Positions 18,362 through 62,205 of a DNA stretch of 64,000 bases are shown here, piece after piece. The stretch is from an uncultured Lachnospiraceae bacterium (lineage in GTDB: Bacteria > Bacillota > Clostridia > Lachnospirales > Lachnospiraceae), in the NCBI GenBank assembly GCA_902777355.1, contig CACYTU010000014.1:1-64000 (forward strand), written 5' to 3'. Numbering within the stretch: the first letter of the stretch is position 1; every line of letters begins with the position of its first letter. Below the pieces are notes generated by a model that saw only the letters and a program-made list of their open reading frames with translations, was not told the DNA's origin and made no database searches. The position numbers were made by a program, and so were the translations under genes.

Positions 18362-19888
18362 ATGGAATTAAAACCAGAGAAGATTTCCCAGGTGATCCGC
18401 AGTCAGATCAAGTATTATGAGAATGCGATCATCCAGAACGAGACCGGCACTGTCCTCACGGTCGGTGACGGTATCGCCAGGGTCAGCGGGCTGGTGAACT
18501 GCATGGCGGGCGAGCTGCTGGAATTTTCGGACGGCACGTTCGGCATGGCGCAGAACCTCGAGGAAAACAGCGTCTCGGCAGTCCTCTTCGGCGAGGACAC
18601 GGGAATCAGTGAGGGACAGACCGTCAAGCGCACGGGCCGTGTCGTCTCAGTTCCCGTAGGCGAGGGCATGATCGGCCGTGTCGTCAACGCGATCGGCCAG
18701 CCGATCGACGGCGCAGGCCCCATCGAGACGACAGAGTTCCGCGCAGTTGAGTCACCCGCACCCGGCATCATTGACCGCCAGCCGGTCAAGGAACCCCTGC
18801 AGACCGGTATCAAGGCCATCGACTCCATGATCCCGATCGGCAGAGGCCAGCGTGAGCTGATTATCGGCGACCGCCAGACAGGCAAGACGACGATCGCCAT
18901 CGACACCATCATCAACCAGAAGGGCAAGGACGTCATCTGCATTTACGTCGCGATCGGCCAGAAGAGATCCACCGTGGCCGGCCTGGTCTCCGACCTGCGC
19001 GCGGCAGATGCCATGAGCTACACCATCGTCGTCGCGGCGACGGCCTCCGAGCCTTCCCCTCTGCAGTTCATCGCTCCCTATTCGGGCTGCGCCATGGGCG
19101 AATATTTCATGAACAAGGGCAAACACGTCCTCATTATCTATGATGACCTGTCCAAGCACGCGGTCGCCTACCGCGCAATCTCCCTGCTGATCAGAAGACC
19201 TCCGGGACGTGAAGCTTATCCCGGCGACGTCTTCTACCTGCACTCGAGACTGCTTGAGCGCGCGGCCAAGCTCTCCGACCAGCTCGGAGGCGGTTCGCTG
19301 ACAGCCCTTCCCATCATCGAGACACAGGCAGGTGACGTCTCGGCCTATATCCCGACCAACGTCATTTCCATTACAGATGGCCAGATCTTCCTTGAGACCG
19401 AGCTTTTCCACTCTGGTATCATGCCTGCCATCAACCCCGGTATCTCCGTATCCCGAGTCGGCGGCAACGCGCAGATCAAGGCTATGAAGAAAGTTGCCGG
19501 TACCCTGAAGCTGGTCTACTCCCAGTACAGAGAGCTGCAGAGTTTCGCTCAGTTCGGTTCCGACCTGGACGAGGACACCAAGTCCCGTCTGGCACAGGGC
19601 GAACGTATCGTGGAAGTCCTCAAGCAGGGCAAGAACGTTCCCTGGCAGGTTGAGAACCAGGTCGCCATCCTGTACGCGACCATCAACGGCATCCTCAAGG
19701 ATGTCGAAGTCAGTGACATCGCGGACTACCAGGATCAGCTGAACAAGCGTCTGACCCAGGATCCCGACGGCATCGCTGTCATGAAGGCGATCCGCGAGAC
19801 CGGCGCCCTGAGTGAAGAAAATGAAGCTATACTGAAATCCGTGCTGGAAGGCTTTACAAAGAACTTCATCGATTCGAAGAAGGCGTAG
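18362..19888 (+). CDS. atpA: F1Fo ATP synthase subunit alpha
   Basis: 508 residues, full length. The non-catalytic nucleotide-binding subunit of F1: Walker [10 protein letters not shown] at about residue 170 and the signature [17 protein letters not shown] near 360. AGAGGA precedes the ATG. The last codons (TCGAAGAAGGCGTAG) are copied once immediately after the stop, giving an 18-bp direct repeat (19871-19906). Confidence 0.98.
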
Positions 19889-19906
19889 ACTCGAAGAAGG
19901 CGTAAG
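19871..19906. repeat. 18 bp duplication spanning the atpA stop
   Basis: GATTCGAAGAAGGCGTAG is followed directly by ACTCGAAGAAGGCGTAAG. The first copy is coding sequence with the stop; the second is outside the gene. Confidence 0.9.
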
Positions 19907-19976
19907 GCCCCTGCATAGGGGAGAAAGGCGGTAACCGCAAAAAGGAACCGCCCATTCCCGATCATGGAGGAAAACT

Positions 19977-20840
19977 ATGGCAGCTGCTAATATGAAGGCA
20001 GTCAAGCTGCGGATCAAGAGTGTGCAGAACACGATGCAGATCACCAAGGCCATGCAGCTGGTTGCGGCGTCCAAGCTCAGAAAAGCCAAGGACAAAGCCA
20101 TGGCCAGCAAACCTTATCTGCGGACGATGAAGGGCACGCTCACAAAGATCGCCAATGAAAACACGGACTTTCAGTCGATTTTTACCAAACCCGGAGCCAG
20201 TGAGAAACGTCTCTTCGTCGTCATCGCGGGTGACAGAGGACTGGCGGGCGGCTACAATGCCAACCTGTTCAAATTTGTGGAAAATGCGGTGGAGGGGCAC
20301 GATTACGCGGTCCTTCCCATCGGTAAAAAGGCGGTGGAATATTTCCGTCACAGAGGCGTGGAAATATTCACGGACGCCTATGAGGAAGTCGCGAAGGTCA
20401 CTATCTCGGACTGCTTCCGCATTGCCAAGTCAGTGTGTGAGGCTTATGAGAAGGGGCAGTTCGGCCACGTGTCCATGTGCTACACCAACTTTATTTCCAT
20501 GATGTCCCAGGTGCCCAAGGCAAGCGCCCTGCTTCCCCTCTCCGATTTCGAAAATCCGGATCTGGACGATATGCCTGAGACGAAGAACATGATTTTGTAT
20601 GAGCCCAACGGCGAAGAGGTCTTCAACACGATCGTTCCCGATTATCTGGCGGGCATCCTGTATACCAGTATCAATGTCTCGGTCGCCAGTGAGCTGGCGG
20701 CACGCCGCACGGCCATGGAGGCCGCGACGGACAACGCGGGTGAGATGATCGAAAAGCTCAGTCTCTTCTACAACCGCGCGAGACAGGCAAGTATCACGCA
20801 GGAGATCACGGAGATTGTGGCCGGCGCAGAGGGATCGTAA
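19977..20840 (+). CDS. atpG: F1Fo ATP synthase subunit gamma
   Basis: 287 residues. The N-terminal helix (KLRIKSVQNTMQITKAMQLVAASKLRKA) and C-terminal helix (MEAATDNAGEMIEKLSLFYNRARQASITQEI) form the coiled-coil rotor shaft within alpha3beta3. GGAGG precedes the ATG. Normal length. Confidence 0.97.
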   Translation: MAAANMKAVKLRIKSVQNTMQITKAMQLVAASKLRKAKDKAMASKPYLRTMKGTLTKIANENTDFQSIFTKPGASEKRLFVVIAGDRGLAGGYNANLFKFVENAVEGHDYAVLPIGKKAVEYFRHRGVEIFTDAYEEVAKVTISDCFRIAKSVCEAYEKGQFGHVSMCYTNFISMMSQVPKASALLPLSDFENPDLDDMPETKNMILYEPNGEEVFNTIVPDYLAGILYTSINVSVASELAARRTAMEAATDNAGEMIEKLSLFYNRARQASITQEITEIVAGAEGS

Positions 20841-20919
20841 AAACCGCAGCTTTGACTTTAGCGAAAAGAAAAAAACGCGAGCCGGCGGGATGCCGGAATC
20901 GATAAACCCTTCCGCATTT

Positions 20920-22373
<1,454 letters not shown>

Positions 22374-22391
22374 GCAAGGAGGAGACTTCCC

Positions 22392-22867: not shown

Positions 22868-22868
22868 A

Positions 22869-22984
22869 TCGCAGGGCTGCCGTAAGGTTATCTTTCGCCT
22901 GATGGCGAACGGCAGCCTGGGGGAGGGCAGAGGGCGGCATATGAACTGCATAGCAGTTCATATTGACGCCTCTGCCCCTTTTTT
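22869..22984. repeat. Dispersed palindromic elements A and B
   Basis: Element A (TCGCAGGGCTGCCG ... CGCCTGATGGCGAACGGCAGC, 22869-22919) follows the atp terminator T tract directly; a copy sits in the same place after the tRNA-Gln terminator (54136-54184). Element B (22921-22984) is a long hairpin: GGGCAGAGGGCGGC, ATATGAACTGCATAGCAGTTCATAT, GACGCCTCTGCCC, then T6. A second copy of B is at 31676-31731. The rest of the 321-bp gap to the next gene holds a possible TATAAT near 23051 and little else. Confidence 0.85.
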
Positions 22985-23120: not shown

Positions 23121-26100
23121 ATGAAACGTCAACAATTGACAGCGATTTTGTTATCGGCTGTCCTGTCTGTTTCTATCTGTCTGCCGCCAGCCGGCATCAC
23201 TGCCTGGGCGGCTGAGGGTATGACAGAGGAGCAAACGACAGAGCAAGTACAGGAAAACGCAGACAACGTTTTACCCGGGGAAAAAGACTCCGGGGAGGAA
23301 GCAGACTCCGTTGAGGAAGTGACCGCCGGCGAAGAAGGAAACGGCGGAGAAGAAATCATATCCGAGGATGCTGCCGCCACAGAAGAAGGCGCCGCAGAGG
23401 AGGAAACCATATCCGAGGATGCCGCCGCCGCAGAAGAAGGCGCCGCAGAGGAGGAAACCATATCCGAGGACCCTGTCTTCGCAGAAGAGGGCGTCGCAGA
23501 GGAGGAAACCATATCCGAGGACGCTGTCTCCAGTGATGAAGGTGACGAAGGAGAAGACACTCATAACGATAATCTCACGGCCTGGGCTGTCGGCCATGAA
23601 AATGAAAAAGGCAATACATGGCAGAATCTGAGCGACTGGGAAGGCTCTGAGAATCTGGAGATTGGTGACTCCTATCGGATTCAGATCGAAGCTGAGACCG
23701 TTGACGGAACTGAACCCACCTTCCAATGGTATCAGAATCACAAGCTGATTGAGGGAGCCACGTCTCCCACTTTTGATGCCGTTATCTACCAGTCGTCATG
23801 GAACTATTTCACCTGCAAGGTGCATGATGATTATGGAAATATGGTGGAGATTTTCTGCCAGATTTACGGAAACGGTAGTGAGGATCAAAACTATGATGAC
23901 AACCTGAAGGCCTGGATCGTCGGTCATGAAGACATGAAAGACGAAGGACAGCAGGCGATCTACGAGTGGGGAGAAGAAACTCCTTACATCGGAGACACCT
24001 TCACTTTGCAGGCAGAAATAGAGATGAAGGACGGAAGTACTCCTTTTGTCCAGTGGTATAAAGATTCTTTGGAAGCCGAAAACATTATTGAGGGCGCGAA
24101 TTCCCTGACTTACGAAGCAGTGCTGTCTTCGGACTCGAACGCCTATGTCTGCTGTATCCAGGATGATTATGGAAATCAGGTGACGATTGAGTGCTATATT
24201 AGTGCACAGATAATGGAAGGCAACCTCAAAGCCTGGGTTGTCGGGCATGAAGATGAAAGAGACAATACATGGCAGAACCTGTCTGACTGGGAAGGTGCCG
24301 ATGGTCTTCGGATCGGAGACAGTTTCACCATTCAGGTTGAAACGGAGACACAGGACGGCAGCCAGCCTTCCTTCCAGTGGTACCGGAATGATGAACTGAT
24401 CGAGGGGGCTGTTTCATCCTCCTTCGAGGCTGTCATGTACCAGCAAGAGTGGAATCAGTTCCTCTGCAAGATCTGGGACACCCGGGGCAATGTGGTGGAG
24501 ATCCTCTGTCAGATCCACGTGGCAGAGGGCACCCAGCTGACTGCGACTCCGATTGGAATCGATAATCCCGGCACTGCGACATTTTCGGATGAAGCCCGCT
24601 GGGTTGCTTTCTCTTTTACTCCTGAAACGGATGGCCACTATACTTTTTACACAGAATCAGATTACAACACACACGCCTATCTCAAGACTGTAGATGGCGA
24701 GGAACTTGGCTATTATGACGATGGAGGGGATGGCGAAAATTTCAAGTTTTCTAATTATCTGTACGCAGGCACAGAGTATGTGCTGGAAGTGGCGGAAATG
24801 AACAGCGAGGACTGCAGCTGTACCGTCTACGTTGAGGAAGGTGAATTCACAGGCGGCGGAGGTGATCCCCAGATCGGCGGAAATCTCGCGGCCTGGCCTG
24901 TAGGCCATGAAGATCAAAAAGGCAATTCTTATCAGAATCTGTGCGACTGGGAAGGTTCTGAGGGTCTGGAGATCGGTGACTCCTATCGGATTCAGATCAT
25001 GGCTGAGACTCTGGACGGAACTGAACCCACCTTCCAGTGGTACCAGAACCGTAAGTTGATCCAGGGAGCCACATCAGCCACTTTTGATGCTGTTATCTAC
25101 CAGTCGTCATGGAACTATTTCACCTGCAAGGTGCGTGATGATTATGGAAATATGGTGGAGATTTTCTGCCAGATTTATGGAAACGGCAGTGAGGATCAAA
25201 ACCACGATGACAACCTGAAGGCATGGATCGTCGGTCATGAAGAGATGAAAGACGAAAGCCAGCAGACAATCGACAACTGGGGGTGGGAAGAAACCCCTTA
25301 CGTCGGAGACACAGTCACACTGCAGGCACAAGCAGAGACGAAGGACGGAAGTACTCCTCTTGTCCAGTGGTATAAAGGTTATGAGAGTGAAGAAAACCTT
25401 ATTGAGGGCGCAAATTCCCTGACTTACGAAGCATTCCTGGATAAGGACTGGAATGTCTATACCTGCTGCATCCAGGATGATTATGGTAATCAGGTGACGC
25501 TGGAGTGCTGCATCAGTGCACAGGTATTGGAAGGCAATCTCAAAGCCTGGGCGGCAGGACATGAAGGGGAAAAAGACTATCCATGGCAGGATATCTACGA
25601 CTGGGAAGATGCCGATGCGCTTCACGTCGGGAGTACTTACAACATTCAGATCCTGACAGAGACGCAGGATGGCAGCGAACCGACATTCCAGTGGTATCAG
25701 GAAGAGGAATTGATCGAAGGAGCGACTTCGTCAGACTTTGAAGCTGTCATGTACCAGGAAGGTCAAAACTGGTTCAGATGTATAGTCACTGACAAATATA
25801 CCAATCAGGTGGAAATCAACTGCTATTTCAACGCTTCTGTCGATTATCGTCAGCTGGCGGTCCCGATCACTGTCGGTACCCCCGGCACAGCTGAGTTCTC
25901 GGAGGAGGCCAGGTGGGTGCCATTCACCTTCACACCGGAGAACAACGGCAAATATGTGTTTTACACAGAATCCGACTACAATACACAGGCATACCTGTAC
26001 GACGGAAATGATCAGGAGATCGGCTGGTATTACGAAGGCGGAGAGGGAAATAATTTCAGGTTCACAGCCAGATTGAATGCCGGGGAGGAGTATCTTCTGA

Positions 26101-29100
26101 ACGTCGCTGAAATGAACAGTGAGGACTGCAGCTGCACTGTGCATGTCGAAGAATATGTCCCCAACATTGTTGGCGGCATGGAACTGTATGGAGACGCATC
26201 CGTAATGGAAGACGGATCCGTCCAGCTGACCCCTGCTGAAGATGGAAAGACAGGAAGTGCATGGCTGGCGGATTCTTATGATACGGAAAACGGGCTGAAA
26301 GTCGATTTCTCCTGGTATACCGAAGGCGACTACTTCGGAGATGGAATGACAATGATGTTTTCCGAGGATACAGGAATTGGATCGGGCGGCGATAACCTCG
26401 GTTTTGTCAGCGGAGCGACAGGAGTCGAATTTGATGGCCGGCAGGATGGAGATCTTGAAGATGGATATTTCTTCAGACATATCGCCATTCTCCAGGGAGA
26501 TGCCTATAATCACACTTCGCGCAGACGGTTTGATCAGGTGGGTGACTCTCAATGGCATGAAACCTCTGTTCTCTATAAGCCGGGATATATGGTCGTCTAT
26601 GTAGACGGAGAAGAAATAGTCCACGCAGTCGACATCAACCTTCCCGATAAGGTATACATCGGCGCATCTGCCGCGAATAGTTTCTGGAATAATCGGCAGA
26701 TGATCAAAAATCTGAGTGTATCTGCAGGCAGCAGCGATTTTCCTGACACGGATGGATGGGAAAACGTAGTTCCTCCTTCCTATAACATCACCTTCAACGC
26801 AGAAGGAGGATATTTTGAAGAGTGGGATGACGAACAGGGGGACAATGTTCAGCTTGCGTCAAAGACGATCACTGTAGACGAAGGGCGCCATTACTATATG
26901 GGATCTTATAAGCCGTCCGTGGCTCCCGAAGGAAAGGTGTTCAGCACCTGGACGACAGAAGGCGATGAGTTTGTGGATCCCGATGGGATGTACGTGGCAG
27001 AAGGCGATATTGAGTATTTCGCAGTCTGGGAAGACGGGGTCACCATTACCTACAATGCAGGGGAAGATGGCTATTATCCTGTAAACCCGCATTGGGATGA
27101 TGATGGAAATGAGATCTATGATCATGTACAGACCAGGACGGAAACGGTACAAAAAAATAGTAATTCCTACTTTAGTGAGTATATAGAAGTTCCCAGCACA
27201 GATACTGATAAAGTCTTCATGGGATGGAGCCTGACTGAAGGTGGAAATCTGATTTACGATGAATACCCGGAAGGATATACCTTAACCGAAGATCTGACTG
27301 TATATGCGGTCTGGGCGGAACCCTGTAGGATTACGTTTGATGCAGGCCAGTACGGCTTTTTTGAAGAGTGGGTATGGAACGAAGAGACGGAAGTGGAAGA
27401 AACCCAACCCGTTGCTACCCGAACATTAACCGTTGGAAAAGGCACAAGATACTGCATGGCTGAAGCAACATCTCCGAATCCGAATGATGATTCCAAAAAG
27501 TTTATCGGATGGAGCCTGACGAGCGACGGGGAACCCCTTTTCGATGACTACTACACGATCACGGAAGATACCTCTTTCTTCGCGGTCTGGGCAGACCCCT
27601 GCACGATTACGTTTGATGCAGGCCAGTACGGACATTTTGAATTGTTTGAATTTAACGAAGAGACGGGAGAGGAAGATATCTTCACGTCCGCTACCCAAAC
27701 ATTAACCTTTGGAAAAGGCGGAAGATTCTCCTGGAATGACGCTCCCGCTCCTGTTCAGGTTGATGATTCCAAAATGCTTATCGGATGGAGCCTGACGAGC
27801 GACGGGGAACCGCTTTCCGATGACTACTACACGATCACGGAAGACACCACCTTCTATGTAGTCTGGGCAGACCCCTGTGTAATCACCTGGGATGCCAATG
27901 GCGGCTACTTTACGGACTGGATAGAGGAAGAAGGCAATTATACTGAGACGCAAATTCCTTCCCGCACAGATAGAATCGGGAAGGGAGTCAAGGTTGTTTT
28001 TGAGAATGTGGGGACACCTTATCCGCCTGATGAGGAGAGTGAATTCCTCGGATGGGCTCTCAGCCCGAAGGGAAAACCGCTTTCAGATCAGTCCAACAAG
28101 ATCACGGAAGATATCACTTTCTATGCAATCTGGAGTAATGGCACTTCCCCCGCTGTGATAGAAATCACAGATGAAAATGTGACGGTCGCGTCCGATGCTC
28201 TCGTGTATAACGGAGAAGAGCAGAAACCTGCTGTCACTGTGACCGTGGACGGAAGCACCCTGACGGAAGGCACAGATTATAGGGTAGAATACAGCAACAA
28301 TATCAATCCCGGAAATGACACCGCGGCTGTGAAAATCATCGGTGAGGGCGATTACACGGGAGAGGTCACAAAGACATTCTCCATCGGCAAGGCCAACCAG
28401 ACCATCACGGCTTCCAACCTGTCCCTGACCTTCCCCAACGGTGGAAAGATCACTGCCTCAGGAAACAAGGGCGCACTCTCCTACACAAGCTCCAACACGT
28501 CGATCGCGGCAGTGGATGCCTCCGGCAATGTCACAGCAAAGGGAGCAGGCAAGGCGACGATCACGATCAAAGCAGCTGAGACAGACTATTATAAAGAGGG
28601 AACGAAGCAGATTACAGTTACCATCGCCAAGGCCAACCAGACCATCACGGCTTCCAACCTGTCCCTGACCTTCCCCAACAAAGGAAAGATCACTGCCTCA
28701 GGCAACAAAGGAACTCTCAGCTACACCAGCTCCAACACGGCAATCGCGGTGGTGGATGCCTCCGGCAATGTAACTGCCAAGGGAGCAGGAAGCGCGAAGA
28801 TTACTATCAAGGCGGCTGCGACATCCAACTACAATGAAGCATCGAAGCAGATCACGGTTACCGTTGCCAAGGCAAACCAGACCATTACGGCCTCCAACCT
28901 GTCCCTGACCTTCCCCAATAAAGGAAAGATCACTGTTTCAGGCAGCAAGGGAACCCTCAGCTACACCAGCTCCAAGACAAGTGTCGCTACGGTGGATGCC
29001 TCCGGCAATGTCACGTCAAAGGGTGCCGGATCCGCGACGATCACGATCAAGGCGGCCGCGACATCCAACTATAATGCGGCGTCGAAGCAGATCACAGTAA

Positions 29101-29900
29101 CGGTTGCCAAGGGAGCCCAGAGCATTACCACGAAGGCGAAAGCTTCTTCTGTGGCAGTGGGCAAAACAGTGGCAGTGACCACTACCGGTGCTAAGGGAAC
29201 AGTGACCTACAAGACATCCGACACAGGCATAGCCACAGTGAACGCCTCCACCGGCGTAGTAACCGCGAAGAAGGTCGGCACAGTCAAGATCACTGCGACG
29301 GCAGCGGCGACAGCCAACTACAATGCGGCATCCAAGACAGTTACCATCAAGGTCGTTCCCGCGGCAACTACATCGCTGAAGGCCGAGAATATGGCCAAGG
29401 GCATCAAGGTGACCTGGGCTAAGGTGACAGGCGCGAACGGCTATGATATTTACCGCAACAACAGTAAAGTCAAGACCATCACCAGCGGTACAACAGTGAC
29501 ATGGACAGATACGGCAGCCAATACCAATAACACGAAATATGTGTATAAAGTGGTCGCAAAAGCTTCCACCGGCGCCAGCACGCTCTCCAAATCCCTGACG
29601 ACCTACAAGGTGACGGCTCCTACGAACAAGTCCGCAGTGAATGTTGCGACGAGAAAGGCAGTGCTGACCTGGACCAGGAACGCAAGTGCAAACGGCTACC
29701 AGGTTCAGTACAGTCTGGCAAGCAACTTCAGCAGTGCCAAGGCAGTTACGATCACTAATAACTCCACTCTGACGACCACAGTGTCATCCCTTACAAATGG
29801 AAAGACATACTATACCCGGATCCGGGCATACAAGACAGTCGGAAGTACTAAGTACTATTCGAACTGGAGCGCGGCGAGGACTGTGAAGATCAGCAAATGA
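23121..29900 (+). CDS. Giant secreted multidomain protein with L-type lectin domain
   Basis: 2259 residues with a signal peptide (about 1-31) and an AAGGAGG site. Next come acidic 18-residue repeats (EEGAAEEETISEDAA, about 75-145), then two blocks of three related modules starting with AW.VGHE (near residues 152, 262, 367 and 587, 698, 805). Each block ends in a PPC-like beta domain (FSDEARWVAFSFTP; FSEEARWVPFTFTP). Residues about 1013-1207 are a legume/L-type lectin fold (DGMTMMF, TGVEFDG). Then follow InlB-type B repeats (about 1225-1670), an MBG-like domain, three to four BIG2-like Ig repeats with KANQTITASNLSLTFPN, and two Fn3-like domains. There is no LPXTG, S-layer or choline-binding motif, so anchoring is unexplained. 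Probably adhesive; the ligand is unknown. Confidence 0.85.
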   Translation: MKRQQLTAILLSAVLSVSICLPPAGITAWAAEGMTEEQTTEQVQENADNVLPGEKDSGEEADSVEEVTAGEEGNGGEEIISEDAAATEEGAAEEETISEDAAAAEEGAAEEETISEDPVFAEEGVAEEETISEDAVSSDEGDEGEDTHNDNLTAWAVGHENEKGNTWQNLSDWEGSENLEIGDSYRIQIEAETVDGTEPTFQWYQNHKLIEGATSPTFDAVIYQSSWNYFTCKVHDDYGNMVEIFCQIYGNGSEDQNYDDNLKAWIVGHEDMKDEGQQAIYEWGEETPYIGDTFTLQAEIEMKDGSTPFVQWYKDSLEAENIIEGANSLTYEAVLSSDSNAYVCCIQDDYGNQVTIECYISAQIMEGNLKAWVVGHEDERDNTWQNLSDWEGADGLRIGDSFTIQVETETQDGSQPSFQWYRNDELIEGAVSSSFEAVMYQQEWNQFLCKIWDTRGNVVEILCQIHVAEGTQLTATPIGIDNPGTATFSDEARWVAFSFTPETDGHYTFYTESDYNTHAYLKTVDGEELGYYDDGGDGENFKFSNYLYAGTEYVLEVAEMNSEDCSCTVYVEEGEFTGGGGDPQIGGNLAAWPVGHEDQKGNSYQNLCDWEGSEGLEIGDSYRIQIMAETLDGTEPTFQWYQNRKLIQGATSATFDAVIYQSSWNYFTCKVRDDYGNMVEIFCQIYGNGSEDQNHDDNLKAWIVGHEEMKDESQQTIDNWGWEETPYVGDTVTLQAQAETKDGSTPLVQWYKGYESEENLIEGANSLTYEAFLDKDWNVYTCCIQDDYGNQVTLECCISAQVLEGNLKAWAAGHEGEKDYPWQDIYDWEDADALHVGSTYNIQILTETQDGSEPTFQWYQEEELIEGATSSDFEAVMYQEGQNWFRCIVTDKYTNQVEINCYFNASVDYRQLAVPITVGTPGTAEFSEEARWVPFTFTPENNGKYVFYTESDYNTQAYLYDGNDQEIGWYYEGGEGNNFRFTARLNAGEEYLLNVAEMNSEDCSCTVHVEEYVPNIVGGMELYGDASVMEDGSVQLTPAEDGKTGSAWLADSYDTENGLKVDFSWYTEGDYFGDGMTMMFSEDTGIGSGGDNLGFVSGATGVEFDGRQDGDLEDGYFFRHIAILQGDAYNHTSRRRFDQVGDSQWHETSVLYKPGYMVVYVDGEEIVHAVDINLPDKVYIGASAANSFWNNRQMIKNLSVSAGSSDFPDTDGWENVVPPSYNITFNAEGGYFEEWDDEQGDNVQLASKTITVDEGRHYYMGSYKPSVAPEGKVFSTWTTEGDEFVDPDGMYVAEGDIEYFAVWEDGVTITYNAGEDGYYPVNPHWDDDGNEIYDHVQTRTETVQKNSNSYFSEYIEVPSTDTDKVFMGWSLTEGGNLIYDEYPEGYTLTEDLTVYAVWAEPCRITFDAGQYGFFEEWVWNEETEVEETQPVATRTLTVGKGTRYCMAEATSPNPNDDSKKFIGWSLTSDGEPLFDDYYTITEDTSFFAVWADPCTITFDAGQYGHFELFEFNEETGEEDIFTSATQTLTFGKGGRFSWNDAPAPVQVDDSKMLIGWSLTSDGEPLSDDYYTITEDTTFYVVWADPCVITWDANGGYFTDWIEEEGNYTETQIPSRTDRIGKGVKVVFENVGTPYPPDEESEFLGWALSPKGKPLSDQSNKITEDITFYAIWSNGTSPAVIEITDENVTVASDALVYNGEEQKPAVTVTVDGSTLTEGTDYRVEYSNNINPGNDTAAVKIIGEGDYTGEVTKTFSIGKANQTITASNLSLTFPNGGKITASGNKGALSYTSSNTSIAAVDASGNVTAKGAGKATITIKAAETDYYKEGTKQITVTIAKANQTITASNLSLTFPNKGKITASGNKGTLSYTSSNTAIAVVDASGNVTAKGAGSAKITIKAAATSNYNEASKQITVTVAKANQTITASNLSLTFPNKGKITVSGSKGTLSYTSSKTSVATVDASGNVTSKGAGSATITIKAAATSNYNAASKQITVTVAKGAQSITTKAKASSVAVGKTVAVTTTGAKGTVTYKTSDTGIATVNASTGVVTAKKVGTVKITATAAATANYNAASKTVTIKVVPAATTSLKAENMAKGIKVTWAKVTGANGYDIYRNNSKVKTITSGTTVTWTDTAANTNNTKYVYKVVAKASTGASTLSKSLTTYKVTAPTNKSAVNVATRKAVLTWTRNASANGYQVQYSLASNFSSAKAVTITNNSTLTTTVSSLTNGKTYYTRIRAYKTVGSTKYYSNWSAARTVKISK

Positions 29901-29985
29901 TGTGGTCAGTTAACTGCATGCGGACATAGTCAGCACTACATGCAGACATATAGTCAGCACTTCATGTAAACATAGTCAGCAAATA
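29885..29985. repeat. ~23 bp array starting at the stop of the giant gene
   Basis: GATCAGCAAATGATG (gene end, stop included) is followed by degenerate units ACATAGTCAGCACTACATG, ACATATAGTCAGCACTTCATG and ACATAGTCAGCAAATACGC. No reading frame is evident. Confidence 0.7.
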
Positions 29986-31427: not shown

Positions 31428-31515
31428 GGGAACAGTGAAAAAGAAACAGTAAAGAATAAGGAAAAGTAAAAATAAAGAACAGTAAAAATAAGGAAACGGG
31501 AAACGGGGAAACAGG

Positions 31516-31562: not shown

Positions 31563-31731
31563 TGACACGGCCCGTGTAATGTATTTTCCGCCTTGCTGTG
31601 GACACGGGGCTTTCGGGATATTGACATGCCTGTGCACAATGTATTTTCCGCCTTGGGCGGACGCGGGCCGGTCGGGAGGGTAGAGGGCAGCATATGAACT
31701 GCATAGCAGTTCATATTGACGCCTCTACCCT
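31563..31731. repeat. Element C twice, followed by element B
   Basis: Two direct copies of a roughly 50-bp unit (AATGTATTTTCCGCCTTG, then GGACRCGGG and TCGGGA) at 31563-31617 and 31625-31677, followed at 31676-31731 by the element B hairpin around ATGAACTGCATAGCAGTTCAT. An inverted C+B composite is at 44476-44575. These fill most of the 457-bp gap between hrcA and grpE. Confidence 0.8.
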
Positions 31732-32604: not shown

Positions 32605-34830
<2,226 letters not shown>

Positions 34831-34892
34831 ATATAGAGATTTAGAATCCTCAACAGGCTGTAAAGAACTATCTGAAACATGGTTTTCATACG

Positions 34893-36739: not shown

Positions 36740-37744
36740 ATGAAATGGATGAGATTCAGGGTCCGGACCAGGACCGACGCGGAAGATATACTGATCAGCT
36801 TTATGGAGGACATCGGCCTGTACGGTGCCCAGATCGAGGACAATGTTCCTCTGACGACAGCGGAAAAAGAGCAGATGTTCGTCGACATTCTTCCGGAGGG
36901 ACCGGCGGATGACGGGACTGCCGTGCTCAGCTTTTTTCTGGAGGAGAATGAGGAAGGGAAGCTTGTGGTGGATGACTGCCTGCTCACACCGGAGCAAGTC
37001 CGCTCACAGATGCTGGCAAAGATTGAAGAAATCCGGGCCTTTTCCGACGTGGGAGAGGGTACCGTCACTATAGATGAGACCGAGGATATCGACTGGATCA
37101 ACAACTGGAAACAGTATTTCCACCAGTTCTGGATCGATGACGTCCTGGTGATCCCCTCATGGGAGAAGCCGGAGCCGGTCATGGAAAACGGGAGGGAAAA
37201 GGTTCCTGCACTGATCTTCCACATTGATCCGGGCACGGCCTTTGGCACGGGAATGCATGAGACGACACAGCTCTGCATCCGTGAACTTCGCAAATATATC
37301 ACGCCGGATACTGTCCTGCTCGACGTGGGCACAGGCAGCGGTATTCTGGCCCTTCTGGCCCTGAAGCTGGGAATCAAAAGGGCAGTGGGAACAGACCTTG
37401 ATCCCTGCGCCATTCCGGCGATCGAAGACAACATCCAGGCTAATGACGTGGATCCGGCCCTCTTCCAAGTGATTCTGGGCAACCTGATCGACGATCCCGG
37501 AGTGCAGGAACAGGTCGGAGAGGAATGCTATGATGTGGTTCTGGCCAACATCCTGCCGGATGTCCTGATTCCTCTGACACCTCAGGCTGTGCGCTGTATG
37601 AAACCCGGCGCGGTCTACATCACATCCGGAATCCTTCTCGAGCGCGCCGAAAGCGTAAAAGAAGCCATGCGCGCCGCCGGCCTCCAGGTCACAGGCATGA
37701 CTGAACAGGGTGAGTGGTGCTGTGTGGTCGGCAGGAAAAACTGA
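36740..37744 (+). CDS. prmA: Ribosomal protein L11 methyltransferase PrmA
   Basis: 334 residues. The SAM-binding motif I is LLDVGTGSGILALLALKLG; motif VVLANILPDVLIPL is the NxxxxxxL substrate loop typical of PrmA; FHIDPGTAFGTGMHETT is also diagnostic. It trimethylates L11. It follows dnaJ, a common neighbour in Bacillota. The last codons resemble the first unit of the 31-bp array downstream. Confidence 0.95.
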   Translation: MKWMRFRVRTRTDAEDILISFMEDIGLYGAQIEDNVPLTTAEKEQMFVDILPEGPADDGTAVLSFFLEENEEGKLVVDDCLLTPEQVRSQMLAKIEEIRAFSDVGEGTVTIDETEDIDWINNWKQYFHQFWIDDVLVIPSWEKPEPVMENGREKVPALIFHIDPGTAFGTGMHETTQLCIRELRKYITPDTVLLDVGTGSGILALLALKLGIKRAVGTDLDPCAIPAIEDNIQANDVDPALFQVILGNLIDDPGVQEQVGEECYDVVLANILPDVLIPLTPQAVRCMKPGAVYITSGILLERAESVKEAMRAAGLQVTGMTEQGEWCCVVGRKN

Positions 37745-37890
37745 CCTGACCGGCTGAAGAAAGCAGGCAAATATGTCCTGCCGTCCGGAGAAAGCAGGTA
37801 AATATATCCTGCCGTCCGGAGAAAGCAGGAAAATATGTCCTGCCGTCCGGAGAAAGCAGGTAAATATATCCTGCCGGCTGGAAAAGCAGG
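37731..37890. repeat. 31 bp tandem array after prmA, four full copies
   Basis: Units of the form AGAAAGCAGGTAAATAT, then (G/A)TCCTGCCGTCCGG. A divergent copy zero (GCAGGAAAAACTGACCTGACCGG) contains the prmA stop. The array runs to within about 40 bp of rsmE. Each unit has a GCAGG/CCTGC stem. Confidence 0.88.
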
Positions 37891-37929
37891 CAGAAGGCGG
37901 AAGATTGCTGAAGATTGCGGGAGAATGCT

Positions 37930-47929: not shown

Positions 47930-48701
47930 GCAGCTTGCTTCCGTGCCGGAGGGGCAGCTTCAGGAGACGACGGTCGATCCTCAGCGGATGGAAGTCTTTA
48001 TAGAAGCGATGATGCCCCCGGGACCGGAGCATCTGCGCCGCCTCGAGGAGGAGGCGGTCGAGGGCAAAGTCCCGATCATCAGACCCCGGACCCGGGATCT
48101 GATCCGTTTTTTTATAAAAATGAAAAAGCCGACGCGCATTCTCGAAGTGGGGACAGCGGTGGGCTTTTCAGCTTTGTTTATGCAATATTACGCACCTGAG
48201 GGGTGCAGGATCGTAACCATTGAGAAAGACCCTGCCCGGGCCGCTCTGGCAAGAGAGAATATCGCTAAATACGGGAGCAGCGGGAGTTCCGCCGCGGCTC
48301 GGCGTGCAGAGCCCGTGGAAAGCGGCCGGCCCCCGATTGAAGTCCTGGAAGGGGATGCCGCGCAGATCCTGAAGGAAATAAGGGAGGACGCCTCCTATGA
48401 CCTGATCTTCATGGACGCGGCAAAGGGTCAGTATATACGCTTTCTTCCGGATGTCCTGCGCCTTTTGAGGGACGGAGGCATCCTGATCACAGATAATATT
48501 CTGCAGGAGGGAGACGTCCTTTCCTCCCGCTTTGCGGTCACCCGGAGAAACCGGACCATTCACAGCCGGATGCGGGAATATGTCCGCGCGCTGGCGGAGG
48601 AACCTTCCCTGGAGACACTGCTTTTGCCTGCCGGAGACGGAACGGCGGTCTGTGTGAAGACCAGTGGGAGCGCGCAGACTGCGGGCAGTATGCTGCATTA
48701 A
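47910..48701 (+). CDS. trmR: tRNA 5-hydroxyuridine methyltransferase TrmR
   Basis: 263 residues from the ATG at 47910 (AAGGAG seven bases upstream), overlapping the MltG-like gene. O-methyltransferase family 3: SAM motif ILEVGTAVGFSALFM, DLIFMDAAKGQY, DNILQEGDV. Next to a U32 peptidase-family gene of the TrhP type it matches the yrrM-yrrO pair of Bacillus, which makes 5-methoxyuridine at tRNA position 34. The substrate is thus inferred from context. The stop is inside the first unit of a 39-bp array. Confidence 0.85.
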   Translation: MSGDSTEQLASVPEGQLQETTVDPQRMEVFIEAMMPPGPEHLRRLEEEAVEGKVPIIRPRTRDLIRFFIKMKKPTRILEVGTAVGFSALFMQYYAPEGCRIVTIEKDPARAALARENIAKYGSSGSSAAARRAEPVESGRPPIEVLEGDAAQILKEIREDASYDLIFMDAAKGQYIRFLPDVLRLLRDGGILITDNILQEGDVLSSRFAVTRRNRTIHSRMREYVRALAEEPSLETLLLPAGDGTAVCVKTSGSAQTAGSMLH

Positions 48702-48894
48702 TTGTTTTTTGGCCGCGTCAGGCAGCCACGGCATTGAATATTGTTTTTTGGCCGCGTCAGGCAGCCACGGCATTGAATATTGTTTTTTGGCCGCGTCAGG
48801 CAGCCATGGCATTGAATATTGTTTTTTGGCCGCGTCAGGCAGCCATGGCATTGAATATTGTTTTTTGGCTGCGTCAGGCAGCCACAGCATTGAG
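48695..48894. repeat. 39 bp tandem array, five copies, filling the trmR-trhP gap
   Basis: The unit is TTGTTTTTTGGCCGCGTCAG plus GCAGCCACGGCATTGAATA. The 3' end of trmR (GCATTAATTGTTTTTTGG, stop TAA) is a copy-zero variant. The last copy runs into the start of trhP. Copies differ at one to three bases. Because 39 is a multiple of three, frames stay open on both strands; these are not genes. Confidence 0.93.
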
Positions 48895-48896: not shown

Positions 48897-50204
48897 ATGA
48901 AAAAAAGATGGAATACAAACCGTGAAAAACCGGAGCTCCTGATTCCGGCGAAAGATCTGGAAGTGCTGCGGACGGCCGTCAATTTCGGAGCGGATGCAGT
49001 CTATATTGGAGGAGAGGCTTTCAGCCTGCGCGCCAAAGCCAGGAATTTCAGCCCTGAAGATATGAGGGAGGGAATCGCCTACGCCCACGCCAGGGGCGTT
49101 CAGGTCCACGTGGCTGCCAATATCTATGCCCACAATTACGACCTGGAGCAGGCGGCTTCTTATTTTCAATTTCTTGAGGAGATCGGGCCGGATGCAGTCC
49201 TGGTGGCTGACCCGGGCATGTTTGCCCTGGCCAGAGAGCACTGCCCCGGAATACCTGTCCATATCTCCACACAGGCAAATAATACCAACTATGAGACCTT
49301 CCGCTTCTGGCACCGCATGGGTGCGGCCCGCGTGGTCTGCGCAAGGGAGCTTTCCCTCAGGGAGATCGCTCAGATCCGTGAGAAAACACCGGCCAGTCTG
49401 GAGATCGAGGCATTTATACACGGGGCTATGTGCATCTCATACTCGGGAAGGTGCCTTTTATCCGCCTGGTTTACAGGAAGGGACGCCAATCGCGGCGCCT
49501 GCACCCACCCCTGCAGATGGAAGTATGCCGTGGCGGAAGAGACCAGGCCCGGCGAGTATTTTCCGATTGAAGAGAATGAGAGAGGCACCTATATCTTCAA
49601 TTCCAGGGACCTCTGTATGATCGGACACCTGCCGGAGCTTGCCGGGGCAGGGGTAGACAGCCTCAAGATCGAGGGACGCATGAAGACTGCCCTCTATGTG
49701 GCGTCGATCACAAGGGCCTACAGGCGCGCCATAGACGATTATCTCGAGAGCGAGGAGAAGTATGAGGCCGGGATGGACTGGTACATGCGCGAGATCAAAA
49801 AGTGCACATACCGGGATTTTACAACGGGCTTCTATTTCGGAAAGCCGGATACGCTTTCCATGGTCTACACGGATAATACCTATGCAAGCGACGCCGTATT
49901 TCTGGGGATCATAGAAGATGTTCAGCCGGCCTGCGGCGGCATGACCGGATCTCCGGCGGCAGATGAACCGGCCGGAAAAGACAGCGGGCACTGTATCGCC
50001 GTGATCCATCAGAAAAATAAATTTGCCGTCGGGGACTTGATAGAGATCATGCAGCCGGACGGCACAGACAAACAGGCAAAAGTGGTCGGTATGTGGAATG
50101 CGGAGAACATTCCCGTGCATGACGCCCCTCATCCGGGAGAGCTGATCAGGCTGGAACTGGATGTGCAGGCAAAGCCGGGAGATATCATCCGGACCGCGAA
50201 ATAA
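48897..50204 (+). CDS. trhP: U32 family tRNA hydroxylase TrhP
   Basis: 435 residues. Peptidase U32 family with ELLIPAKDLEVLRTAVNFGADAVYIGG (residues 13-39; first 20 given by ELLIPAKDLEVLRTAV) and four conserved cysteines C-x6-C and C-x3-C in GAMCISYSGRC and GACTHPC, which bind a 4Fe-4S cluster. TrhP makes 5-hydroxyuridine at U34 using prephenate; TrmR then methylates it. B. subtilis has two such genes (yrrN, yrrO); only one is here, so it may act alone. A 13-bp array copying its last codons follows. Confidence 0.88.
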   Translation: MKKRWNTNREKPELLIPAKDLEVLRTAVNFGADAVYIGGEAFSLRAKARNFSPEDMREGIAYAHARGVQVHVAANIYAHNYDLEQAASYFQFLEEIGPDAVLVADPGMFALAREHCPGIPVHISTQANNTNYETFRFWHRMGAARVVCARELSLREIAQIREKTPASLEIEAFIHGAMCISYSGRCLLSAWFTGRDANRGACTHPCRWKYAVAEETRPGEYFPIEENERGTYIFNSRDLCMIGHLPELAGAGVDSLKIEGRMKTALYVASITRAYRRAIDDYLESEEKYEAGMDWYMREIKKCTYRDFTTGFYFGKPDTLSMVYTDNTYASDAVFLGIIEDVQPACGGMTGSPAADEPAGKDSGHCIAVIHQKNKFAVGDLIEIMQPDGTDKQAKVVGMWNAENIPVHDAPHPGELIRLELDVQAKPGDIIRTAK

Positions 50205-50341
50205 GACCGCGAAGATAAGAGCGCAAAATAAGACCGCGAAATAAGACTGCGAAAGAAAACCGCGAAATAAGATCGCGAAAGAAAACCGCGAAATAAGATC
50301 GCGAAAGAAAACCGCGAAAGAAAACCGCGAAAGAAGAGAGC
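50191..50341. repeat. 13 bp array starting at the trhP stop
   Basis: Units alternate between ACCGCGAAATAAG and ACCGCGAAAGAAA, with variants, about eleven copies. The first unit is the last codons of trhP and its TAA. The next 300 bp to trkA hold a hairpin-like GGGTGCATTTGAGCGCTGCACCC (50470s) and no gene. Confidence 0.92.
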
Positions 50342-54662: not shown

Positions 54663-56729
54663 TTGGAAACGGTATCGTCAACTCTGAAAAAAATTGTCGG
54701 GTCATTTGCCCTTGGGCTTGCAGCTGTATTTGTCGCTGCGGGAACATCATTTATTCCGGTTTCCGCTGCGGAGACTGCGGGCGCGTCTTCTGTTTCTGCT
54801 GCAGAGAGCGCCGGAAAAGCTGAAAAGACAAAAGAAGCTGAGAAAGACACCGGCAAGGGCAAGAAAGAAGAGAAGGAGGAACTCGTCACTTTCGACGAGG
54901 GAATCGAGGCTTTTTTCAATGATTCAGGTGATCTGTCAGATCGTGCCATTCTTATGTCAGCTCAGAAGACGCAATCGGATGTGAGTGCGCTGGATGCTGA
55001 ACTCGGTAAAGAAGAGAGCAGCGAGATCCTTTCGGTCATGGATGCCTATGAGGCGGCGAAAGTCGATTATATCATGGCCAGGATCAACAAGGAGCTGACT
55101 TCCGAGAAGGACAAAAGCGAGAAGGAGACTAAAGCCATTCAGGCGGCGGGTCTGGAAATGTCCTCTAAGGACGGGGTCTGCCATGAGTGGGATAAGCAGA
55201 GCGATTACACCCTGCTGATGATCACCGAGGACTCCGCCATCCGGGAGATGATTCCCAGATATCAGATTACTTCCTGTAAGATAGAGGACGGAGTCATGAA
55301 GCTCGCCGTAGACGAGTGGATGACTCAGGGCTATGGTCAGACGGACGGAACAGGTCCGGAGAATGCTTCCTCCTATATCTATAATTTTTCCCTTTCTCTG
55401 AAACGGGATCAGGATGGCCTCTGGACACCCTTCGAAGTCAACGACACGGAAGTGAACTTCAACTGGCTCAATCACAGGGCAGTCGATCCGGAGATGGAAT
55501 CGACAGAGGCCCCCGACAACCTGTATCCTGTCAAATCGGATGCGGATGCCGGAGTGACCGCCTATGCACAGATCGTTACGGATGTACCCGGAGACAGCGG
55601 GAAACAGGACGGAGCCGCGCCGGAGAAAGCAGCTGTGGCATTTGAGATCAACGAGAAGGCGGCTGTTGTTCCGTTCAGTAAGGCGCGGGAGACAGAAGCC
55701 GCCCTTTATGCCGATGCGGAAGTAGAGAAAACCGCTTCCGATCTCAGGACCGCCTATTATGACGGCTATGATGCCGATGACGCGATAAAATATTCAAACA
55801 AATACTGGAAACACTATAACCACCGTTATTATGACTACAGCCATGTGGGCGGTGACTGCTGCAACTTCGTCTCGCAGTGCCTGTCCTCCGGAGGTATGCC
55901 CCATACCAGCGACTGGTACCCGGGTTCCATAGCATGGATCAATGTGCCGGCTACCAGGAAGCACTTCAGCCAGTACGGCATGAAGATCACCGCGGACAAT
56001 TCCAGTGTCAGACGCGGAAATCCCGTCTATTACGACTGGCAGGGAGATGGTGTATACGATCACACTGCATTGTGTGTCGGAACCAATTCCTCCGGTATGC
56101 CGATCGTAAATGCCCATACAACCAATGTCTACCATGCGCCCTGGAGACTGGGGAGCGGAGGAAGCCGCCAAACTATTCTTCTGAACAGGAAATCCTCGTC
56201 TTCATACGACAAGAATACCTGGAAGATCATCGACGGAAAAGTCTACTATCTGGACGGAAAAGGGAAAAAAGTCAAAAAGAAATTTATGACGATTGACGGC
56301 AGCCGCTATTATTTCAAAAAGTCCGGCGAGAGAGCCTCGGGCTTTTTCAAAGTTGACGGCAGCTGGTACTATGCTTCTGTCAGCACCGGCAAGCTCGCAC
56401 GCGGATGGACGTGGATCGGCGGAAAGCTCTACTATTTTTCCAGGTCGACATATAAGAGGTACACGATCGGAAGGCACCTGATCGGCGGACACAGGTATTT
56501 CTTCAGCTCCAAGGGAGTCCGGCTGACCGGATTCTTCAGGTATCGCGGCAAGGTCTACTATGCCGGCCAGGAGACAGGCTGGCTTGTTTCCGGGTGGAAA
56601 AAGATGAACGGCAAGTGGCGCTATTTTGACAGAAAAACAAATGTCATGGCGACAGGCTGGAAGACCATTAACGGGCACAGGTGCTATTTCAACTCAAAGG
56701 GAATTCTTAAAAAGGGAAAACATGGCTGA
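54663..56729 (+). CDS. Secreted amidase-domain protein with wall-binding repeats
   Basis: 688 residues from a TTG at 54663 with GGAGGGGG upstream. Signal peptide (about 1-35), a charged helical N-terminal part, then a putative amidase (Amidase_6 type) domain near residues 370-515: YDADDAIKYSNKYW, GGDCCNFVSQCL with the likely nucleophile Cys, DHTALCVG with His, and VNAHTTN. The C-terminal 160 residues are Tyr/Gly/Trp-rich repeats like choline/glucan-binding modules (SRYYFKKSGERASGFFKVDG, KLYYFSRSTY). It probably acts on or binds the cell wall. The last codons are the first unit of a 62-bp array. Confidence 0.85.
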   Translation: METVSSTLKKIVGSFALGLAAVFVAAGTSFIPVSAAETAGASSVSAAESAGKAEKTKEAEKDTGKGKKEEKEELVTFDEGIEAFFNDSGDLSDRAILMSAQKTQSDVSALDAELGKEESSEILSVMDAYEAAKVDYIMARINKELTSEKDKSEKETKAIQAAGLEMSSKDGVCHEWDKQSDYTLLMITEDSAIREMIPRYQITSCKIEDGVMKLAVDEWMTQGYGQTDGTGPENASSYIYNFSLSLKRDQDGLWTPFEVNDTEVNFNWLNHRAVDPEMESTEAPDNLYPVKSDADAGVTAYAQIVTDVPGDSGKQDGAAPEKAAVAFEINEKAAVVPFSKARETEAALYADAEVEKTASDLRTAYYDGYDADDAIKYSNKYWKHYNHRYYDYSHVGGDCCNFVSQCLSSGGMPHTSDWYPGSIAWINVPATRKHFSQYGMKITADNSSVRRGNPVYYDWQGDGVYDHTALCVGTNSSGMPIVNAHTTNVYHAPWRLGSGGSRQTILLNRKSSSSYDKNTWKIIDGKVYYLDGKGKKVKKKFMTIDGSRYYFKKSGERASGFFKVDGSWYYASVSTGKLARGWTWIGGKLYYFSRSTYKRYTIGRHLIGGHRYFFSSKGVRLTGFFRYRGKVYYAGQETGWLVSGWKKMNGKWRYFDRKTNVMATGWKTINGHRCYFNSKGILKKGKHG

Positions 56730-56905
56730 TTGGACCGATTGGTTCTCAAAGCAAATATGGCCGGCTGATTCCCAAAGGAAAACATGGCTGATTGGACCGA
56801 TTGGTTCTCAAAGCAAATATGGCCGGCTGATTCCCAAAGGAAAACATGGCTGATTGGACCGGTTGGTCCTCAAAGCAAATATGGCCGGCTGATTCCCAAA
56901 GCAAA
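56717..56905. repeat. 62 bp array starting at the amidase stop, three copies
   Basis: Copies start at 56717, 56779 and 56841, each beginning AAAACATGGCTGATTGGACC and ending GGCCGGCTGATTCCCAAAG. Copy one holds the last codons and stop of the amidase gene. After it, 56906-57113 is ordinary A/G-rich spacer with no gene. Confidence 0.93.
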
Positions 56906-60460: not shown

Positions 60461-60474
60461 CCGCCCTTCTTTTT

Positions 60475-60582
60475 GGACGGCGCGCCGGGGGCGCGTCATC
60501 GTCATGACTCGGGACGGCAGAATAATCTGACAGCCTGTTTTCGGGGACGGCGGGCCGGGGGCACGTCATCGTCAGGACGCGG
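60475..60582. repeat. ~38 bp direct repeat after the regulator
   Basis: GGACGGCGCGCCGGGGGCGC, then GTCATCGTCATGACTCGG at 60475-60512, is repeated with small changes at 60544-60582. Confidence 0.8.
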
Positions 60583-60620
60583 CATGTCAGATCATTTAAC
60601 AGGAGGTTTTAGCTACAGAT

Positions 60621-62063
60621 ATGGACGAAGGAAATATGTATTCAGCAGGTCAGGATCCACAGGCACAGCAGTTTGGCCAGGTGCCGCAGGGACAGCAGCC
60701 CCAGCAGTTTGGCCAAGTGCCGCAGGGACAGGAGCCTCAGCAGTTTGGCCAGGCGCCGCAGGGACAGCAGCCTCAGCAGTTTGGACAGGCTCCGGGCGGT
60801 ATCCCGCAGCCGCAGTCCGGCGGATACCCTGAATACAGGCAGATCCTTGAAGGAAAGAGGAAGAAAGGCGGATGGGCCGGAAAAGCGGGATTCTTTATTC
60901 TGGGACTGGCAGCGGGAATCGCGCTGCTCTTTATCGCCTCGCGTCTGTTCCCCATGCATATTGCTGCCACGCAGGGGGGAGATTCTTCAGAAGAAGGATC
61001 CGTGGTGAACAGGAACTCCATGAACAAGCTGGATGTTCTCGAGCAGTATATCAGGGAGTACTACTATGAGCCGGAGGACATAAAGGAAGAGACTCTGGAA
61101 AACGGCATGTACAAGGGGCTCATGAGTTCACTGGGAGACCCCTATACCGAGTACTATACCAAAGACGAGTACAAGTCACTCACTGAGGACACAACGGGAA
61201 TTTATAAAGGAATCGGTGCTTATATCGGCCTGCAGGAGGGGACAGGAGCCCCCATGTTCACCAGTATCATGCCCGGAACGCCGGCGGAGGAAGCCGGACT
61301 GAAGGCCGGAGATATCATCTGCGAAGTCAACGGAACCGATACCCTGTCTATGAGCACGTCAGATGTGGCTGCCCTGGTCAAGGGCGAGGAAGGAACCACG
61401 GTAGACATCAAGGTCTCCCGGGACGGCCAGTATATCACTGTGACGGCCACCCGCAGGACTATCAATGTCCCCACAGTTGATTCCAAAATGCTGGACGGCA
61501 AGATCGGTTATCTGGCGATTACCCAGTTTGACGATGTGACTCCCGCCCAGTTTGACGAAAATCTGGCGGAACTTAAAAAACAGGGCATGACATCTCTGAT
61601 CATCGACCTCAGGAACAACCCCGGAGGGACCGTCTCCGCTGTCACCCAGATCGCTTCCGAGCTTCTTCCCGAGGGACTCATCTTCTACATGGAGGACAAA
61701 AACGGCAGGCGCGAAGAGTATAAGTGCCCCGGCGCGGACTTCAACCTGCCTCTGGCAGTTCTCGTGAATGAGTACTCGGCAAGCGCTTCCGAGATCCTCT
61801 CGGGCGCCATCCAGGATGCCGGAATCGGCAAGCTTGTCGGAGTGACAACCTACGGCAAGGGCATCGTCCAGAACCTCTATCCCCTGGATGACGGCACTGC
61901 GCTCAAGATCACCGTGGCGGATTATTACACCCGCGCGGGACGCAATATTCACAAAGTGGGTATTGAGCCTGATGTTGTCGTAGAATATGATTCAGAGGCA
62001 TTTGAGAAGGACGGCACGGACAATCAGCTCGAAAAGGCAAAAGAGATCGTGACCGGAAAGTAA
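60621..62063 (+). CDS. S41 C-terminal processing protease
   Basis: 480 residues. A cytoplasmic N-terminus of about 65 residues is almost all repeats (QQFGQVPQGQ type), then one transmembrane helix (about 90-110). A PDZ domain (IMPGTPAEEAGLKAGDIICEVNG) and the tail protease follow: NEYSASASEIL carries the catalytic Ser and GVTTYGKGIVQ the Lys of the Ser-Lys dyad. It is a CtpA/CtpB relative that cuts exported proteins. The start is uncertain: AGGAGG is 14 bases before the ATG. Its last codons begin a 47-bp array. Confidence 0.9.
   Translation: MDEGNMYSAGQDPQAQQFGQVPQGQQPQQFGQVPQGQEPQQFGQAPQGQQPQQFGQAPGGIPQPQSGGYPEYRQILEGKRKKGGWAGKAGFFILGLAAGIALLFIASRLFPMHIAATQGGDSSEEGSVVNRNSMNKLDVLEQYIREYYYEPEDIKEETLENGMYKGLMSSLGDPYTEYYTKDEYKSLTEDTTGIYKGIGAYIGLQEGTGAPMFTSIMPGTPAEEAGLKAGDIICEVNGTDTLSMSTSDVAALVKGEEGTTVDIKVSRDGQYITVTATRRTINVPTVDSKMLDGKIGYLAITQFDDVTPAQFDENLAELKKQGMTSLIIDLRNNPGGTVSAVTQIASELLPEGLIFYMEDKNGRREEYKCPGADFNLPLAVLVNEYSASASEILSGAIQDAGIGKLVGVTTYGKGIVQNLYPLDDGTALKITVADYYTRAGRNIHKVGIEPDVVVEYDSEAFEKDGTDNQLEKAKEIVTGK
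60650..60800. repeat. 33-36 bp repeat coding the protease N-terminal tail
   Basis: CAGCAGTTTGGCCAGGTGCC and GCAGGGACAG units, four copies, in frame. Confidence 0.9.
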
Positions 62064-62205
62064 AAAACGGTCACGCCCGCATGGCAGAAGAAAATGTGAC
62101 CGGAAAATAAAACAGATCATGGCCGGAAGGATGGGGAAACCGCAGCCGGAAAGTAATAATTGGTTTGGCCGGAAGACCAGGGAAACCGAGACCGGAAAGC
62201 AAAGT
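62049..62205. repeat. ~47 bp array starting at the S41 stop, 3.4 copies
   Basis: Copies start at 62049 (GTGACCGGAAAGTAA), 62096 (GTGACCGGAAAATAA), 62142 (GCAGCCGGAAAGTAA) and 62189 (AGACCGGAAAGCAA). Copy one is the 3' end of the protease gene with its stop; copies two and three keep a TAA. Confidence 0.9.

Follow-up and report, generated by a model that had tools for sequence, protein, structure and literature searches.

Tandem arrays across stop codons in a Lachnospiraceae genome: probable tolerated duplications at the edge of intergenic minisatellites

Introduction

A 64-kb stretch of DNA from an uncultured Lachnospiraceae bacterium (assembly GCA_902777355.1, contig CACYTU010000014.1, positions 1 to 64,000; hereafter the window) carries short tandem arrays that begin at or near the 3' ends of genes, raising the question of whether some process acts specifically on gene ends in this organism. 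The original prediction, made from the letters alone, was that in at least eight genes the end of the coding sequence, stop codon included, had become the first unit of a downstream array. The arrays are minisatellites, with head-to-tail units of about 10-100 bp and, inside genes, periods that are mostly divisible by three. The analysis reported here shows that the pattern is real, that it is not aimed at gene ends and that the stop codon is no duplication hot spot. Stop-overlapping arrays are very probably local tandem duplications that have been tolerated, an edge class of ordinary intergenic minisatellites.

Sequences and array calling

The window belongs to a 3.87-Mb assembly (G000) of 150 contigs, 84% complete and with 5% contamination. 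Outside the window, an 800-kb sample was taken from contigs C1-C9, picked by number and not by content. Genes were called with a finder written for this analysis, based on codon statistics, a ribosome-binding motif and dynamic programming; there was no comparison with curated annotation, and called starts are less certain than called stops. It placed 47 genes in the window, with 81% of the DNA coding, and 543 in the sample. Tandem Repeats Finder (TRF) gave 51 rows in the window, where 20% of the intergenic bases lie in a tandem array, and 255 intergenic arrays in the sample; the median period over 433 arrays of the sample, those in genes included, is 19 bp (10th-90th percentile 11-60 bp). Under the strict overlap rule, an array must have a TRF score of at least 40, matches of at least 75% and at least 3 bp of a gene inside it. 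One genome per species was compared. The overlap, edge, profile and stop/spacer counts exclude all of G009 and ten contigs shorter than 5 kb, seven from G028 and three from G014; the single stretches of other members of the genus entered only the comparison of density with genome size.

Stops, starts and spacer points

Copying of gene ends into the spacer was scored for ends facing spacers of at least 200 bp, using 16-base windows with at most 2 mismatches and a lag of 8-90. In the 800-kb sample, 39 of 266 stops are copied as against 5 of 298 starts (Fisher P 4.7e-9), an asymmetry that is real and beyond chance. At distances of 30, 60 and 90 bp beyond these stops, 38, 51 and 40 of 266 points are copied (stop versus +60, P 0.2); no asymmetry between stop and spacer is seen, and the stop is no hot spot because these spacer points score as it does. 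The check proposed with the original prediction, whether arrays start at stops more often than at starts or at random intergenic points, is thus borne out in its first half and fails in its second, and the claim of a repeated process acting at gene ends does not survive the same counts.

Over 244 stop flanks, the copy-rate profile stays level between the stop and +100: the rate is 0.071 in windows containing the stop and 0.078 in the spacer, a ratio of 0.91 (95% bootstrap interval 0.61-1.31), or 0.87 (0.64-1.13) under looser matching. Into the gene the rate declines over roughly one repeat-unit length; at starts it is about 0.02, rising slowly to 0.064 at 100 bp, and shuffled spacers give 0.000-0.002. 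Four other genomes of the genus yield a ratio of 0.84 (0.14-2.20) or 0.60 (0.16-1.25), their 93 flanks being too few for more; with six pooled, 8 of 142 stops, 16, 9 and 12 of 142 spacer points and 1 of 194 starts are copied.

The positions of the arrays lead to the same picture. Among the 255 intergenic arrays in the sample, the strict rule counts 39 stop overlaps and 4 start overlaps, where uniform placement expects 22.6 and 22.4, respectively; the deficit at starts has a P of 2.8e-7. A tolerance null that lets arrays span stops and keeps them out of the 40 bp preceding each start expects 36.0 stop overlaps against the 39 seen (P 0.28). Of the 26 intergenic arrays in the window, 3 extend over a stop, where the same null expects 5.3, and none extends over a start. 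For other genomes, where numbers are small, the stop overlaps seen and expected are 9 and 11.6 in G028, 4 and 4.0 in G016, 2 and 2.4 in G012, 1 and 0.8 in G008, 0 and 0.3 in G003, and 0 and 1.4 in G031; start overlaps number one in G028, one in G016 and none in G012, G008, G003 and G031. Neither kind of overlap occurs in the low-array control G014 (1 array) or in G057 (9 arrays).

Probable tolerated duplication and its difficulties

The distribution of the arrays is demonstrated by these counts; a probable history behind it can be outlined. Short tandem duplications would arise at many places in G000, possibly by replication slippage or unequal recombination, and those that survive would be the harmless ones, the filter presumably being purifying selection. 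When a duplication crosses a stop, the first copy and the protein would remain intact and the extra copy would come to lie past the stop, so that it should survive as well as one confined to the spacer; a duplication that covers a start codon, a ribosome-binding site or a promoter would disturb expression and would mostly be removed; and one within a gene should survive mainly when its length is a multiple of three. Indeed, the period is divisible by three in 133 of 150 arrays lying wholly within genes of G000 and in 62 of 66 of G028, as against 79 of 240 and 26 of 61 intergenic arrays. Slippage tolerated beyond the stop was the first explanation offered with the original prediction, and both the contrast between stops and starts and the equal copy rates of stop and spacer support it. 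A pattern that looks purposeful would then become a case of selection by tolerance, the same event surviving at a stop, being lost at a start and persisting in frame within a gene.

Several observations weigh against tolerance as the whole explanation. The tolerance null forbids the 4 start overlaps that were observed, and its 40-bp guard was chosen by the analyst. Array edges cluster mildly within 15 bp of stops, with 46 found against 35.3 expected in G000 (P 0.021; with a 60-bp start guard 39.0 are expected, P 0.09) and 31 against 21.5 in six other genomes of the genus pooled (P 0.010). The suspected cause is a truncation of arrays where they meet the gene, since the copy inside the coding sequence is not free to diverge along with those in the spacer; this reading is favoured because coverage is not raised at stops. 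Truncation predicts few edges 15-60 bp inside the gene, and the counts there are 3 against 9.6 in the other genomes and 17 against 18.1 in G000; since the shortage is hardly seen in G000, the clustering is explained in part, not fully. The stop triplet, moreover, leans towards better retention in later copies, its difference from other triplets being -0.03 to +0.20 (bootstrap over arrays). Finally, a study of variable number tandem repeats (VNTRs) in Yersinia pestis (PMC3689786) describes low diversity of the VNTRs that overlap stops, with constraint suspected, so that tolerance may be incomplete.

Gene ends in the window

The eight gene ends named in the original prediction were each aligned to the next 250 bp, and the matches were compared with those in 2000 Markov-shuffled downstream sequences. 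A downstream copy of the gene end is significant at five of them (atpA, dnaK, trhP, the amidase and the S41 protease) and weak or absent at the giant lectin gene, prmA and trmR, so that five of the eight examples hold. These eight loci and that of hrcA lie on the + strand.

The gene atpA (18362-19888; ATP synthase alpha/beta family, Pfam) is followed at a lag of 17 by one copy of its last 14-15 bases, end and copy together occupying 19871..19905; the copy is identical at 14 of 14 positions, stop included, and none of the 2000 shuffles equals it. This is a single duplication (two copies), at which TRF reports no array at score 30. At dnaK (Hsp70, Pfam), whose stop ends at 34797, a 15/16-bp array occupies 34783..34838 (union of two TRF rows); the copy matches at 12 of 13 positions (P=0.002), and its best alignment ends before the stop codon, while the TRF array, at -14..+32, crosses it. 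The first unit of the 13-bp TRF array at 50192..50337 (11.2 copies) is the last 13 bases of a U32-peptidase-family gene (PF01136), the predicted trhP, with 13 of 13 identities, stop included, and no equal among the 2000 shuffles. Similarly, the 62-bp TRF array at 56715..56905 (3.1 copies) has the final 15 bases of the amidase gene (PF12671) within its first unit; the copy matches at 17 of 18 positions, stop included, and again no shuffle out of 2000 equals it. Degenerate copies of the end of the S41 protease gene (PF03572; stop ending at 62063) extend over 62036..62205 at a lag of 47, the right border being that of the original prediction; the best, at 62083-62110, matches at 23 of 28 positions with the stop included (P=0.001), and TRF finds no array at score 30. 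Near the start of the same gene, at 60666-60789, there is a 36-bp in-frame array rich in glutamine codons.

The other three loci are different. The 22-bp TRF array after the giant gene, the predicted lectin, lies at 29913..29981 and begins 13 bp past the stop, which ends at 29900; the gene-end match (9/9, P=0.024) falls short of the stop, and the array is not clearly derived from the gene end. The giant gene itself (23121-29900; 2259 codons in its longest reading) contains repeats of 51, 276 and 240 bp, each a multiple of three. Directly after prmA (PrmA, Pfam; stop ending at 37744), a 31-bp array covers 37745..37892 (union of two TRF rows), and its similarity to the gene end is weak (9/9, P=0.058, the stop not reached). 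The first base of the 39-bp TRF array at 48701..48893 (4.9 copies, 97% matches) coincides with the final base of the stop codon of an O-methyltransferase-family gene (PF01596), the predicted trmR, and no copy of the gene end is found downstream (P=0.996). One gene absent from the earlier list, hrcA (HrcA, Pfam), has an 11/12 match with the stop included (P=0.0155); a 16-bp A-rich array at 31430..31496 (union of three TRF rows) lies just past its stop, which ends at 31427.

A near-identical hairpin-like stretch is common to two spacers of the window, at about 22936-22975 and 31689-31728. Its 18-base core is present at two places in the window and at one in the 800-kb sample, where it is in no called gene, and is absent from the samples of eight other genomes; it is possibly a rare dispersed element.

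Alternative explanations

The alternative that survives best is a process targeted to gene ends, for example at transcription termination or at a conflict between replication and transcription, that copies 3' ends. It agrees with the large excess of stops over starts and with the mild clustering of array edges near stops. Moreover, orthologues of seven genes of the window were compared, 42 in all (11 of 20 for dnaK, 11 of 39 for prmA, all for the others), and three of them have independent, unrelated stop-spanning repeats of their own, namely trhP of G028 (L061; period 25, -10..+76), dnaK of G021 (L110; period 10) and one prmA (L134; period 8). However, targeting should raise stops above deeper points of the same spacers, and no such excess exists; the flat profile and the stop/spacer counts already refute it for the most part, and it is regarded as unlikely.

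The original prediction had also considered 3' mRNA structure and back-up stops. That the arrays serve as 3' mRNA structures or terminators was suggested by an inverted repeat visible by eye in the prmA unit; nevertheless, the folding of 114 units (25-90 bp) is no stronger than that of 114 plain intergenic segments (up to 60 bp; Mann-Whitney P 0.91), the folding z against mononucleotide shuffles having a median of -0.64 for units and -0.23 for plain segments, with 0.12 and 0.17 of them, respectively, below -2. This function is therefore very unlikely.

Selection for a back-up stop codon in every repeat copy is harder still to credit. The stop triplet is kept in place in 82 of 102 later copies (42 arrays of G000, the window included) and in 92 of 114 when other members of the genus are added (58 arrays), as this explanation would have it. 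On the other hand, the periods of the 58 stop-spanning arrays fall 21, 20 and 17 times on residues 0, 1 and 2 modulo three, with no preference for the reading frame, and therefore 37 of the 58 carry their first additional stop in another frame. In a test that skipped later copies with less than 60% match, 87 of 114 preserve the stop triplet unchanged (0.76), a value that falls inside the span of its neighbours (0.54-0.79). Ho and Hurst 2019 (PMC6764699) likewise report no compelling evidence for selection of additional stops in eubacteria.

An artefact of assembly or binning might be suspected in a metagenome-assembled genome with the contig number, completeness and contamination given above, but the copies have diverged from each other, the arrays within genes hold frame and the pattern recurs in further assemblies of the genus, making it highly improbable. 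The idea that the arrays are copies of one mobile or dispersed element of the MIRU kind has no point in its favour and a practically negligible probability, being refuted within the sample by the finding that only 15 of 287 intergenic arrays (sample and window) resemble another, with a largest cluster of 3, and by the match of the repeat to the local gene end at five of the eight loci; the earlier statement that this is not one dispersed repeat thus stands.

Turnover and density within the genus

Orthologous spacers were compared in 153 reciprocal best pairs between G000 and seven other genomes of the genus, one G000 array possibly counting in several of them. An array of G000 is present in 59 of the 153 pairs, and its unit was found in none of the 44 with an orthologous spacer of at least 15 bp. 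As a control, 40-bp segments were matched to the orthologous spacer: spacers are poorly conserved overall and arrays even less so, because 42 of 480 plain segments match as against 1 of 91 array segments. Beside the closest PrmA relative (L132, 91%), the spacer contains 12-bp repeats instead of the 31-bp repeats of the window.

Tandem duplication is unusually dense in the genome of the window. The fraction of intergenic DNA in arrays is 0.140 in the G000 sample, 0.108 in G028, 0.130 in G016, 0.123 in G012 and 0.167 in G031; it is 0.038 in G003, 0.028 in G008, 0.011 in G014 and 0.039 in G057, which belongs to another family. A broader set of 58 of the 64 loci L148-L211, namely those of at least 10 kb with at least three genes, gives a pooled fraction of 0.032 (per-locus median 0.010, 90th percentile 0.112, maximum 0.235); the set is mostly Lachnospiraceae and is not wholly outside the genus, since at least one locus (L151) belongs to G016. 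Density is patchy, varying more than tenfold among species of one genus (G014 to G031). In 23 genomes of the genus it shows no correlation with genome size or with median spacer length (Spearman 0.18 and -0.11), a noisy comparison in which most samples are of 20 kb or less and from which 14 of 37 genomes, with spacer of 1,500 bp or less, were dropped.

It is tentatively proposed, as a possibility somewhat short of even likelihood, that part of the genus has a raised rate of short tandem duplication, so that much of the intergenic DNA, along with some protein linkers, would be continually remade species by species out of nearby sequence, including the ends of genes. If the rate is truly raised, the high-density lineage would be a good system for measuring the birth of bacterial intergenic DNA.

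Loss of repair genes was considered as a cause of the density and rejected for MutS, SbcD, MutL and RecJ, the four repair genes that the search covered, all of which exceed the cut-off in G000. Across the genus, 41 of 41 genomes match MutS (TIGR01070), 35 of them over the curated cut-off, and 39 of 41 match SbcD (TIGR00619), 38 of them over the cut-off; MutL and RecJ are over the cut-off in six of six chosen genomes. In G000, stretches of 79, 122 and 119 residues in MutS, MutL and SbcD, respectively, lie between two matched parts of the family model without matching it themselves; the one in SbcD spans 56 positions of the model. Repeats of 12, 24 and 36 bp that keep the frame are found in and beside the MutL stretch, and none at score 40 in those of MutS and SbcD; the MutS stretch of G028 has 12- and 18-bp repeats, and the G014 region none. 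The repair-gene regions with unmatched stretches are L252 (G000, contig C12, 27900-33400), L253 (G000, contig C46, 32300-33400) and L254 (G028, contig C26, 56100-61400).

Comparison with known systems

A literature search for such arrays in Lachnospiraceae gave no paper naming the family among the 12 listed of 330, which is weak evidence of absence; related repeats have been reported in other bacteria. MIRUs share with the present arrays the position at gene junctions; however, they are described as dispersed and apparently mobile units of one family, with insertion at start codons (PMC12548453), whereas the arrays described here are nearly all mutually unrelated and avoid starts. The TAACTGA repeats of Beggiatoaceae are, like the present ones, intergenic direct repeats some of which lie across the stop of the upstream gene, in their case at 13 open reading frames (PMC4679880); they differ in consisting of one fixed heptamer, mainly discussed as lying upstream of open reading frames, while here the sequence varies from locus to locus.

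The closest parallel is offered by the VNTRs of Y. pestis (PMC3689786), and the claim that no description of the pattern was known cannot be upheld in view of them. Among 88 VNTRs, 48 are intergenic and 24 lie within genes, the latter all with unit lengths divisible by three; 16 overlap gene ends, 10 of them a stop codon and 6 a start codon (a CRISPR among the latter), and the authors remark that an overlap with a stop might have a milder effect on the gene than one with a start. Units are of 1-60 bp, 84% of them of 7-21 bp. Short units, a mostly intergenic location, in-gene periods divisible by three and an excess of stops over starts are common to both systems; the contrast between stops and starts is stronger here, at 39 to 4 of 255 arrays compared with 10 to 6. 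Stop-overlapping tandem repeats have already been described for Y. pestis, and what is notable in the present genome is the density of tandem arrays as a whole, which take up about 14% of the sampled intergenic DNA.

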